A DNA stretch of 64,000 nucleotides from an uncultured Ruminococcus sp. (GTDB taxonomy: Bacteria; Bacillota; Clostridia; Oscillospirales; Ruminococcaceae), in contig CANRDT010000003.1 in the NCBI GenBank assembly GCA_947629455.1, forward strand, positions 1 to 64,000, read 5' to 3'. Positions 39,749 to 43,279 of this stretch are shown one piece after another. The notes under the pieces are model-generated. The model saw nothing but the letters and a program-made list of their open reading frames with translations. It searched no databases and was not told where the DNA came from. Numbering within the stretch: the first letter of the stretch is position 1; each line of letters starts with the position of its first letter. Both the position numbers and the translations under genes were made by a program.

Positions 39749-39777
39749 TTGATTTTTTCGTCAAAAAAGTGTATAAT
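39749..39777 (+). promoter_or_regulatory. Sigma70-type promoter for the ExbB-like cluster
   Basis: TTGATT - 17 bp - TATAAT. Confidence 0.7.
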
Positions 39778-39824: not shown

Positions 39825-40343
39825 ATGAAGGATTTCTTTTCGGTCATAATGATGAACATAATGGGATTTGATATGATAATATTTATTGTCGCGCTGTGCA
39901 ACGCGGCGGTGTATTATCTTACCCGAAAGTCGGCGGACGAGCTTTACAAAAAAATGCATCTGACTGTTTTTGTCCCCGACAAAACCGAGTCGCAGGCAGA
40001 GACCGCTGCGGAACTGGAAAATCTGCGCGAATCGGACGTCGCCGCCATGCGCAACCGCACGGGCAGGCTTTATTCGGTGTTCGTTAATCTTACGGGTATC
40101 TTCCCGTTGCTCGGTATACTCGGAACGGTGGTCTCGCTGCTGTCGCTCGTGCAGGATATTTCTAACGTACAGGGGAATTTCTACGGCGCTCTGACTTCCA
40201 CCTTCTGGGGACTGGTCTTTGCTATTATTTTTAAATTTCTGGACGGCGTTATCAGTCCGAAGATAGAGGATAACGAAAAGACCGTGCAGCTTTATCTCGA
40301 AAGAAACTCAATGAACAAGCTTGACAAGGCGGAAAAGCGATGA
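39825..40343 (+). CDS. MotA/TolQ/ExbB proton channel family protein
   Basis: Three predicted TMs; signature GRLYSVFVNLTGIFPLLGILGTVVSLLSLVQD ... NFYGALTSTFWGLVFAIIFKFLDGVISPKIED; ATG 39825. Confidence 0.85.
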   Translation: MKDFFSVIMMNIMGFDMIIFIVALCNAAVYYLTRKSADELYKKMHLTVFVPDKTESQAETAAELENLRESDVAAMRNRTGRLYSVFVNLTGIFPLLGILGTVVSLLSLVQDISNVQGNFYGALTSTFWGLVFAIIFKFLDGVISPKIEDNEKTVQLYLERNSMNKLDKAEKR

Positions 40344-40870
40344 AAAACAAGGGAATGATAATCGAGCTGACCTCGCTGCTGGACGTTATACTCATAATGC
40401 TGTTCTGGGTGATGATAACCTCATCCGACAGGGCGGCTCAGGCGGAAAACGAGGCGCAAAAACAGATAGACGATATTCGCGAGGAATACCGTCAGGAATC
40501 GCAGGACAAGGATATTCAGATCGAACAGCTCGACCGCTATTTTTCCGCAGTGGAGGGCTTTGAGGACGGCGAAATGCTCACGGTGAGCGTTACATATTCG
40601 GAAAACGAGGACGTGCTTTCATTTTCAAGACGGGACGAGGTGCTGTTTTCGCAGACGATGGACGGTCTGACCGACCCCGAAACTCAGCTGCGGCTCGTTC
40701 TGGACGGTCTTACCGCTGACCGTGACGGCGTTATCTTGTGCGCTTTTGTATTTGACGGCTCTTCCGCTCTCTACCGCGACGTTACCGCCGTGAAAGATGC
40801 GTTTGAATCGGTGCGCGGCGATTATGAAAATCTGTATTTTACAATGGTAAATACAAATCCTAAGATATGA
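40340..40870 (+). CDS. ExbD/TolR/MotB-like protein with one N-terminal TM and coiled coil
   Basis: N-terminal TM with buried Asp (IIELTSLLDVILIMLFWVMITS); coiled coil (EAQKQIDDIREEYRQESQDKDIQIEQLD); ATGA overlap with the ExbB-like gene. Confidence 0.75.
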   Translation: MKNKGMIIELTSLLDVILIMLFWVMITSSDRAAQAENEAQKQIDDIREEYRQESQDKDIQIEQLDRYFSAVEGFEDGEMLTVSVTYSENEDVLSFSRRDEVLFSQTMDGLTDPETQLRLVLDGLTADRDGVILCAFVFDGSSALYRDVTAVKDAFESVRGDYENLYFTMVNTNPKI

Positions 40871-40943
40871 CCGTTTAAAACCGCTGTCTGCGGCGTTTGT
40901 CAAGCCGCGGCAGGGGCAAGTATAATGTAAAGGGGAAATTATT

Positions 40944-41480
40944 ATGGCAGGAAATTACATTCATCCGGCTCAGGAAAAACAGGAAAAACACGAAAAAAAG
41001 CGTCAGAAAAAGAAAAAGAATAAAACTCTAATCTTTTTGATCGTTCTGGCTTTACTCATCGTCTGCCTGCTCCTGCTCTTTAACGCTCTCGGTCTCGGAC
41101 TGGGCGGCGGCAAAGGCGAGGGCGACGGCGGCAAAGATTCAAGCAGCGCTGCCGAATCCGCGGCGGACAGCTCCGTGCCGGACGATTCCTCCGAAGTGGA
41201 AAAGAACGTTTTCCGGGTAAGAATATCCGGCAGCTCGTACATCTGCGACGATAAGGTCTACACGCTTGACGAATTCAAGACTTTTGTTGAAGTTATGGAT
41301 AAAAATACCGTCATCATCGAACTGCTCGACGATAACGCGGTGACAAACGCCGTGGAAAGTATGCATTCAATGCTTGACGAGCTGCAAATATCCTACACCG
41401 ATTCCGTCTACAGCGAGGCAGGTCAGGATACTCAGGCTGATACTTCTTCCTCTGCGGAAGATACCTCCGCCGCTTACTGA
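40944..41480 (+). CDS. Single-TM protein with extracytoplasmic TolR/ExbD-like domain (inferred)
   Basis: Lys-rich cytoplasmic N-terminus, TM (TLIFLIVLALLIVCLLLLFNALGLG), Ser/Asp linker, C-terminal VRISGSSYICDDKVYTLDEFKTFVEVMDKNTVIIELLDDNAVTNAVESMHSMLDELQISY resembling the ExbD periplasmic fold. Confidence 0.65.
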   Translation: MAGNYIHPAQEKQEKHEKKRQKKKKNKTLIFLIVLALLIVCLLLLFNALGLGLGGGKGEGDGGKDSSSAAESAADSSVPDDSSEVEKNVFRVRISGSSYICDDKVYTLDEFKTFVEVMDKNTVIIELLDDNAVTNAVESMHSMLDELQISYTDSVYSEAGQDTQADTSSSAEDTSAAY

Positions 41481-41506
41481 TACCGCGCGAAAGGCAGGGC
41501 TTGACA

Positions 41507-42358
41507 ATGTTAGGGATAGTATGCGAAGGAGGCGGCAGCCGCACGGTCTATTCCTGCGGTATTTTGGACGTTCTTCTTGAAGAAAACATCATAGCCGATC
41601 ACTTTATCGGCGTTTCCGCAGGCATTGCTTTCGGAGTATCCTACTGTTCGGGACAGATCGGCAGAAATCTCACTCTTGCAACGCAATTTATGAACAGACC
41701 GGAATACTCGGGAATAAAGCACCTGCTCGATCCGAAAAACCGCAGCTATTACAATCTCGACTACGCCTATTATCAGGTGCCGGACAAGGAACTTCCTTTT
41801 GATATGGATGCATATAAAGCCTTCCCCGGCGATATAATTTCAGTAGTGACGAATCTGCGCACGGGACAGGCGGAGTATCTCCCCTGCGACCGTGACGACA
41901 AGTATTTTACCCACCTCAGAGCAAGCTGTGCGCTGCCGCTGCTCTTTCCGCCAATCGAGATCGGCGGCGAGCTTTATATGGACGGCGGCATTGCCGACTC
42001 GATACCGTACAAACAGGCAATAAAAGCAGGCTGCGACAAACTTATCGTCATTCTTACCCGACCGAGGGATTACATCAAGCGCGACGAACCTGCAATAAAG
42101 CTTGCCTGCGCTTATTACAGGAAATATCCAGGCTTTGTTGAGTCAATGCGCACCCGTGCGGAAAGATATAACCGGACGGTCAGCGAATTGAAAGAGCTGC
42201 AAAGTCAGGGCAAGGTCTTTGTATTCACGCCAAAGAGGACTTACGGTACGCGCCGTACCGAGGGCGATCCGCAAAAGCTGAAAAAGCTCTACGATCACGG
42301 CTACGGTCACGCGCGCTGGGCTATGGACTCGCTGAGAAAATATCTTGGCAGACCGTGA
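41507..42358 (+). CDS. Patatin-like phospholipase
   Basis: GIVCEGGGSRTVYSCGILDVL (oxyanion motif), GVSAG (GXSXG), YMDGGIADSIP (DGG). Confidence 0.92.
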   Translation: MLGIVCEGGGSRTVYSCGILDVLLEENIIADHFIGVSAGIAFGVSYCSGQIGRNLTLATQFMNRPEYSGIKHLLDPKNRSYYNLDYAYYQVPDKELPFDMDAYKAFPGDIISVVTNLRTGQAEYLPCDRDDKYFTHLRASCALPLLFPPIEIGGELYMDGGIADSIPYKQAIKAGCDKLIVILTRPRDYIKRDEPAIKLACAYYRKYPGFVESMRTRAERYNRTVSELKELQSQGKVFVFTPKRTYGTRRTEGDPQKLKKLYDHGYGHARWAMDSLRKYLGRP

Positions 42359-42424: not shown

Positions 42425-43279
42425 GTGTTCATATTGAACGGAAAAAAACTTGCTTTGCCTGCCTTGGCGGCAGCTGTCTGGTTTCTTTTTGAAAACGACC
42501 GTCTGGTCACGGATCATTATACGGTAGAAGTGTCCAATTTACCGGATAGTTTTGTCGGAAAGAGGATAGTTCATCTCTCCGATCTTCACCAGAAAAAATA
42601 CCCCGACGGCTACGGGCGGCTGATCGAAAAATGTCGGGAATGTGAGCCTGACTATATTTTCTTTACGGGCGATCTGTTCAGCAGGAACCAGACTGTCCCC
42701 GGCGACAAGCTCACGCTTATGAAAGGACTTCTGAGTATCGCGCCGGTATATTATATAGTCGGCAACCACGAGATCTTCTATCCCGAAAAGGCAAGGTATA
42801 TGAACGACAGGCTGACCGAAGTCGGTGTGAACGTTCTGATAAACCGCCGTGTCCGTCTTGTCTGCAATGACGAGTCGGTCGATCTCTACGGGCTGGCGCT
42901 GCCTATGGAACATTATAAATCTCCGAGCGGCAGCTACCGCAGGCTTGCTCCCGTAACAAAACAAGAGCTTGACTCGCTGCTTGGCACGCCTGACAAAAAC
43001 AGGTGCAGCATACTTCTGGCGCACACTCCCCTGCCGTTTCGCGAATATGCGTCCTGGGGCGCGGACCTCGTTTTTGCAGGTCACGTACACGGCGGAGTTA
43101 TACGTCTCCCCGCTGTCGGCGGACTGCTTTCTCCCGAGAGAAAATTCCTCCCCGAATTTACAAAGGGAGTCTATACCGATGGGGATTCCTCAATGATAGT
43201 TTCGGCAGGGCTCGGAAAATTCAGGCTGATGAATCCGTCTCAGGTGATCTGCGCCGAGCTGAAAAAAAGCGAAAAATAA
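42425..43279 (+). CDS. Metallophosphoesterase (YkuE-like)
   Basis: KRIVHLSDLHQKKYPDGYGRLIEKCRECEPDYIFFTGDLF, YYIVGNHEIFYP, DLVFAGHVHGGVIRLP; GTG 42425 or TTG 42434 start. Confidence 0.92.
   Translation: MFILNGKKLALPALAAAVWFLFENDRLVTDHYTVEVSNLPDSFVGKRIVHLSDLHQKKYPDGYGRLIEKCRECEPDYIFFTGDLFSRNQTVPGDKLTLMKGLLSIAPVYYIVGNHEIFYPEKARYMNDRLTEVGVNVLINRRVRLVCNDESVDLYGLALPMEHYKSPSGSYRRLAPVTKQELDSLLGTPDKNRCSILLAHTPLPFREYASWGADLVFAGHVHGGVIRLPAVGGLLSPERKFLPEFTKGVYTDGDSSMIVSAGLGKFRLMNPSQVICAELKKSEK

Follow-up and report, generated by a model that had tools for sequence, protein, structure and literature searches.

Genes at the locus

The window, a 64,000-nucleotide stretch at the start of a contig from an uncultured Ruminococcus sp., comes from a genome assembly of 2.04 Mb in 54 contigs that is 86% complete. 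Three consecutive open reading frames, which we call genes B, D and T, lie in it at the coordinates that a first-pass annotation of this DNA had given them, and the ATGA overlap joining genes B and D is there as described. The features of the locus are as follows.

39749..39777, + strand: promoter-like site TTGATT-17-TATAAT upstream of gene B (consensus match alone, 10/12)
39825..40343, + strand: gene B, a compact MotA/TolQ/ExbB-family channel subunit of 172 amino acids (Pfam, profiles, invariant T101 and T126)
40340..40870, + strand: gene D, an ExbD/TolR-type subunit of 176 amino acids (helix with invariant D15, coiled coil, C-terminal domain)
40897..40926, + strand: promoter-like site TTGTCA-18-TATAAT just 5' of gene T (consensus match alone, 11/12)
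40944..41480, + strand: gene T, a single membrane helix and a predicted ExbD-type C-terminal domain (profile comparison, AF2)
41507..42358, + strand: patatin-like phospholipase with DUF6363, a neighbour that we judge not to be part of the cassette

Gene B starts at 39825 behind a good ribosome-binding site (GGGAGGG). Gene T has a ribosome-binding site of its own as well as the promoter-like site in front of it, which may allow it to be expressed by itself too. Gene B is the sole MotA_ExbB-family gene in the window genome, as far as an assembly that is 86% complete can tell. In the same 86% of a genome we found no Omp85 and no match to TonB_C over the cut-off, and these two absences support the monoderm host that had been claimed earlier.

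The usual explanation of Exb and Tol motors is that an outer membrane has to be powered. Apart from the flagellar motors, the superfamily is heterogeneous and contains many unknowns (PMC12505986), and ExbB-family genes in Gram-positive bacteria have been noted as untested (PMC9389320). Among open-licence papers, we found none on an Exb/Tol-like system in Ruminococcus and none describing a B-D-T cassette.

Genes B and D carry the marks of ion-driven motor subunits

The product of gene B matches the Pfam family MotA_ExbB (PF01618) with an E-value of 5.8e-11 (42.7 bits, with a cut-off of 22.9), which bears out the MotA/TolQ/ExbB signature that had been read from this gene by eye. A profile of the B family finds the structures of MotA, ExbB and TolQ with E-values from 1.5e-6 to 2.8e-3. 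Two threonines of gene B, T101 and T126, are invariant in 20 of 20 diverse relatives, and hhalign aligns them to T145 and T178 of E. coli TolQ. In MotAB, ExbBD and TolQR, threonines surround the aspartate (PMC12204202). Both its Pfam score, which is over the cut-off, and its conserved threonines in TM2 and TM3 place gene B in the MotA/TolQ/ExbB superfamily. In a tree of B-type channel proteins (48 rows), ExbB/TolQ form a closed clade with support of 99/99 and MotA forms another with 99/97, and neither has a cassette B protein inside it. The cassette B proteins group together with weak support (70/65), and two long-branch members of this group are possibly misplaced.

Gene D alone falls below the cut-off of the Pfam ExbD family (PF02472), with an E-value of 0.028 and 14.9 bits against a cut-off of 25.4. 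At the level of the family the relationship is clearer–15 of 60 D family members match PF02472 at E ≤ 0.01 (the best at 6.6e-6), and hhalign aligns the D family profile to the helix of 20 true ExbD proteins at a probability of 91%–and the ExbD/TolR-type transmembrane segment with an aspartate that had been proposed for gene D is upheld on this basis. The membrane helix, TSLLDVILIMLFWVM, carries the invariant D15, which is Asp in 60 of 60 D sequences and aligns to the ExbD aspartate; T11 and L14 are also invariant in the family. With its transmembrane aspartate set in this helix motif, gene D has the helix mark of the ExbD/TolR family. After the helix, AF2 predicts a coiled coil and then a C-terminal alpha/beta domain, whose order of strands and helices (b-b-b-a-b-a-b) is the same as in the domain of gene T. 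We detected no profile match between this outside domain of D and ExbD, and for want of profile support we do not read it as a second ExbD domain.

Gene T has an ExbD-type domain and no membrane acid

The product of gene T is predicted to begin with a Lys-rich cytoplasmic N-terminus, followed by one membrane helix, a Gly-rich stretch, a low-complexity linker rich in Ser, Asp and Glu, an ExbD-type C-terminal domain at about residues 88-154, and a tail that is also of low complexity. No D, E or H occurs in the transmembrane window of any of 60 T proteins, so that gene T does not have the transmembrane aspartate of the ExbD/TolR family. Lacking a membrane acid, T cannot carry the protons, and with no transmembrane histidine it does not have the residue for TonB/TolA docking.

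The first-pass annotation had seen in gene T a C-terminal segment resembling the ExbD fold, and this proposal stood in profile comparisons (93-94%) and was not borne out by a search of structures. Using a reference set of 20 true ExbD proteins, we obtained an hhalign probability of 93% for the T domain against ExbD with full profiles, and of 94% (E = 1.5e-7) against the ExbD outside domain with cropped profiles, where the reversed control gave 1.3%. PF02472 is touched by 2 of 60 T family members. The AF2 model of the domain has a pLDDT above 90. When the T and D models were compared to the PDB by Foldseek, ExbD/TolR was not among the top 50 matches, which were weak RNase H-like and generic alpha/beta folds; because these matches are generic, we did not use fold comparison with the PDB as support. 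Similarly, the T domain has no match to the single E. coli ExbD or TolR sequences, but the family profile does match. Since neither Foldseek nor single sequences give a match, the relation between the T domain and ExbD rests on profile comparison, by which we regard the assignment of the predicted outside domain of T to the ExbD/TolR type as confirmed. No other T-domain protein was found in the window genome, where further matches cover only the low-complexity and transmembrane half of the profile.

Some divergent cassettes have second T-type genes directly after T (L144:7729-8241, L149:8048-8482, L153:10954-11379, L142:2748-3167 and L028:26-445), and tandem second T genes are also present in the divergent locus L145. 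In L144 and L149 the second T begins with a signal of lipoprotein type, which suggests that a lipid can anchor the ExbD-type domain. In the most divergent cassettes (L153 and L148), T has two hydrophobic segments instead of one.

The three genes are linked and under selection

Using iterated profiles on all fetched loci, we found that genes B, D and T recur as a unit in about 100 loci. T is within 500 bp 3' of D in 78 of 79 Ruminococcus loci and in 17 of 18 divergent loci. The divergent exception is L142, where the T frame has an over-long predicted start and overlaps D, and the Ruminococcus exception is L110, where T lies about 5.6 kb further on from D. This grouping is far beyond chance. The interval between D and T at the exceptional Ruminococcus locus (L110:464-7571, about 5.6 kb) includes an open reading frame of about 1050 amino acids. 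In genome G105, B and D share a contig but are about 16 kb apart (B at 9376-9882 of L141, G105:C21; D-T in L211), and T still overlaps D. Between close relatives the median dN/dS values are 0.07 for B, 0.15 for D and 0.21 for T, and all three genes are under purifying selection.

Named carriers of the cassette are Ruminococcus albus, R. flavefaciens and R. bicirculans, besides many assemblies from the rumen and gut. The D profile hits 24 of the 248 family genomes that were sampled, spread over 14 of 126 genera, and samples of the order and class contain a few three-gene cassettes in other families (L122, L128 and L129). By contrast, a phylum sample of 300 genomes mostly from outside the class has no cassette besides the window's own; true ExbD genes are common in that sample (75 of 300). 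From these samples the cassette looks like a Clostridia-type system with a patchy distribution in its home family, and because it is patchy its job appears to be an accessory one.

Genes beside the cassette

The patatin phospholipase reported from 41507 is real (Pfam E-value 3.8e-23). It is present within 1.5 kb 3' of D in 23 of the 68 Ruminococcus loci that have enough sequence, and at none of the 17 divergent loci. These counts led us to reject patatin as a partner of the motor; it is a lineage-specific neighbour, outside the cassette. Downstream genes in other lineages are aroB/aroA/aroC, an amidohydrolase, folC/uvrC or unrelated genes, by labels that were assigned by eye, with Pfam run for the window's own neighbours only. 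Across the inspected loci, there are no conserved neighbours beyond the three genes that would name the function.

The window also contains, at 42425-43279, a metallophosphoesterase that is YaeI/LpxG-like by a weak NCBIfam match. A homologue of it follows patatin-less cassettes in several lineages (L040, L065, L069 and L097).

Comparison with known systems

The cassette resembles ExbB-ExbD in having a PF01618 channel with two pore threonines, a partner with an Asp-bearing helix, and an operon that also encodes an outside domain of ExbD type, here on T. It differs in that this domain is on a separate protein without the aspartate, in that a coiled coil and a different domain are part of D, and in that there is no TonB and no outer membrane. 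Of the marks of a Ton system, neither TonB nor an outer membrane is evident in the window genome (86% complete), and B is not inside the ExbB/TolQ clade where a Ton or Tol motor would place it. The gene order recalls TolQ-TolR-TolA, with a channel, an Asp-helix partner and then a third protein that crosses the membrane once and has a linker and a domain outside, but T lacks the transmembrane histidine of TolA (SHLS motif), its domain is of ExbD type rather than TolA type, and the host is a monoderm.

The Agl machinery of Myxococcus gliding works through an outer membrane. Like the cassette, AglR-AglQ-AglS consists of one MotA/TolQ-type and two TolR/MotB-type proteins; AglQ and AglS both bear a transmembrane aspartate (PMC9389320), whereas T does not. 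The vWA transducers of diderm phyla, whose function is unknown, have TolQ-like genes together with paired TolR-like genes (PMC12204202). They too are TolQ-like motors with unusual extra partners, but these partners are vWA-domain proteins of diderms, whereas T is a Clostridia protein with a domain of ExbD type.

MotA is the best match of gene B among solved structures in the profile search. However, D and T have no OmpA-type domain of the kind found in MotB (at E ≤ 1), B has no long cytoplasmic domain, and B does not group with MotA, whose clade (99/97) excludes the cassette proteins. We rejected a flagellar stator, because there is no other MotA_ExbB gene in the genome (86% complete) and B is outside the MotA clade.

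A candidate envelope motor and its alternatives

Judged by the rest of the superfamily (PMC9389320), an ion-driven motor of 5:2 type is what B and D should assemble into. The conserved residues make B-D a likely motor part, and gene linkage makes T a likely regular partner. Five B subunits would form a ring in the cytoplasmic membrane, with two D helices as its axle. Protons (or Na+) would pass via D15 of D and T101/T126 of B, and this flow would drive the movement of D relative to B, as we infer from homology to TolQR, ExbBD and MotAB. D would have, besides its coiled coil, an outside domain of its own, and T, separately anchored, would act as stator or as output partner, engaging D on the outside and coupling the motion to the wall. 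Diderms have the proton-carrying helix and the ExbD-type domain in one ExbD chain; here the two would be on separate proteins.

The TolR domain can bind peptidoglycan, an activity that is cryptic until a rearrangement releases it (PMC4646322). Given this precedent and the ExbD/TolR-type domain predicted for T, the simplest picture would be that the motion of D is handed to T, or braced by it, against the wall. On balance we favour, with some confidence, a PMF-driven motor of the 5:2 type made of B, D and T and probably acting on the cell wall; the wall as its target is in itself a guess, perhaps a correct one. Because the working parts are conserved, the genes travel together and selection is strong, an envelope motor that has not been described so far probably exists in single-membrane bacteria. 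We suggest tentatively that this PMF-driven envelope motor may form a class of its own that is native to Clostridia with a single membrane, with its proton-carrying axle and its ExbD-type outside domain on two proteins and its work on the cell wall or surface layer.

The compact B, with its small cytoplasmic part, would also suit an ion channel or ion-driven sensor. B-D would then not generate force, and the T domain would bind a wall fragment or peptide, gate the entry of ions and signal the state of the wall. The anchors of T vary (a membrane helix, two hydrophobic segments or a lipoprotein-type signal; L144, L149 and L153), as those of ligand-binding partners do. However, no signalling gene is conserved beside the cassette, and those relatives with the Asp/Thr pathway that have been characterised are motors (PMC9389320), so we think a sensor unlikely.

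We consider it very unlikely that the cassette is a vestige of a Ton/Tol system, left without function after descent from a diderm ancestor or after transfer. Its distribution is patchy, as a relic's might be, and complete Ton systems are occasional in monoderm Clostridia, where a survey judged Ton systems of monoderms likely to be non-functional (PMC12204202). Against this, dN/dS is 0.07-0.21 across the three genes, the proton-pathway residues are invariant down to about 20% identity, B is outside the ExbB/TolQ clade (99/99 for that clade), T is nearly always present although it is foreign to any Ton system, and the window genome (86% complete) has neither TonB nor Omp85.

Even less probable is a motor coupled to the patatin, metallophosphoesterase and M20 peptidase genes in lipid or envelope turnover. 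T and the patatin gene are on the same strand, 26 bp apart and with no clear terminator between them, and patatin is downstream in 23/68 Ruminococcus loci. The first-pass annotation had proposed this coupling to lipid turnover and had made it depend on conservation of patatin beside the channel genes, but patatin is at 0/17 divergent cassettes, many Ruminococcus loci have other genes downstream, and at L101 the patatin gene is upstream and on the opposite strand.

ZorAB is a motor in the same wide superfamily, non-flagellar and outside Ton/Tol like the cassette, and patatins are effectors in some defence systems. A Zorya-type anti-phage system, with B and D as a ZorA/ZorB-like sensor motor and the patatin as the effector nearby (it has a weak PADLOC phospholipase match, E = 0.0055), is the most improbable of these readings, and we rejected it, because none of the three proteins is matched in PADLOC, including its ZorA and ZorB models, at E ≤ 1, an OmpA-type domain is absent from D and T at the same threshold, patatin is not conserved, and the inspected neighbours are biosynthetic or housekeeping genes by label.

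For the favoured motor of B, D and T, a conserved and selected cassette in monoderm Clostridia, with named strains of R. albus, R. flavefaciens and R. bicirculans among its carriers, makes the role of such a machine without an outer membrane directly testable. With its ExbD-type domain split from the helix that carries the protons, the cassette is also a natural experiment on that domain's purpose.

Dockerins in cassette-positive genomes

At least 5 dockerins are present in 15 of 27 cassette-positive genomes of the family, compared to 3 of 31 negative genomes, in a hand-picked sample dominated by related species. The other 12 cassette-positive genomes lack this richness, and they include the window genome, which has one dockerin. 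A link between the cassette and the cellulosome is a lead that is confounded by relatedness. At one locus (L134:11232-13121), a dockerin-bearing secreted protein is encoded just 5' of a cassette.
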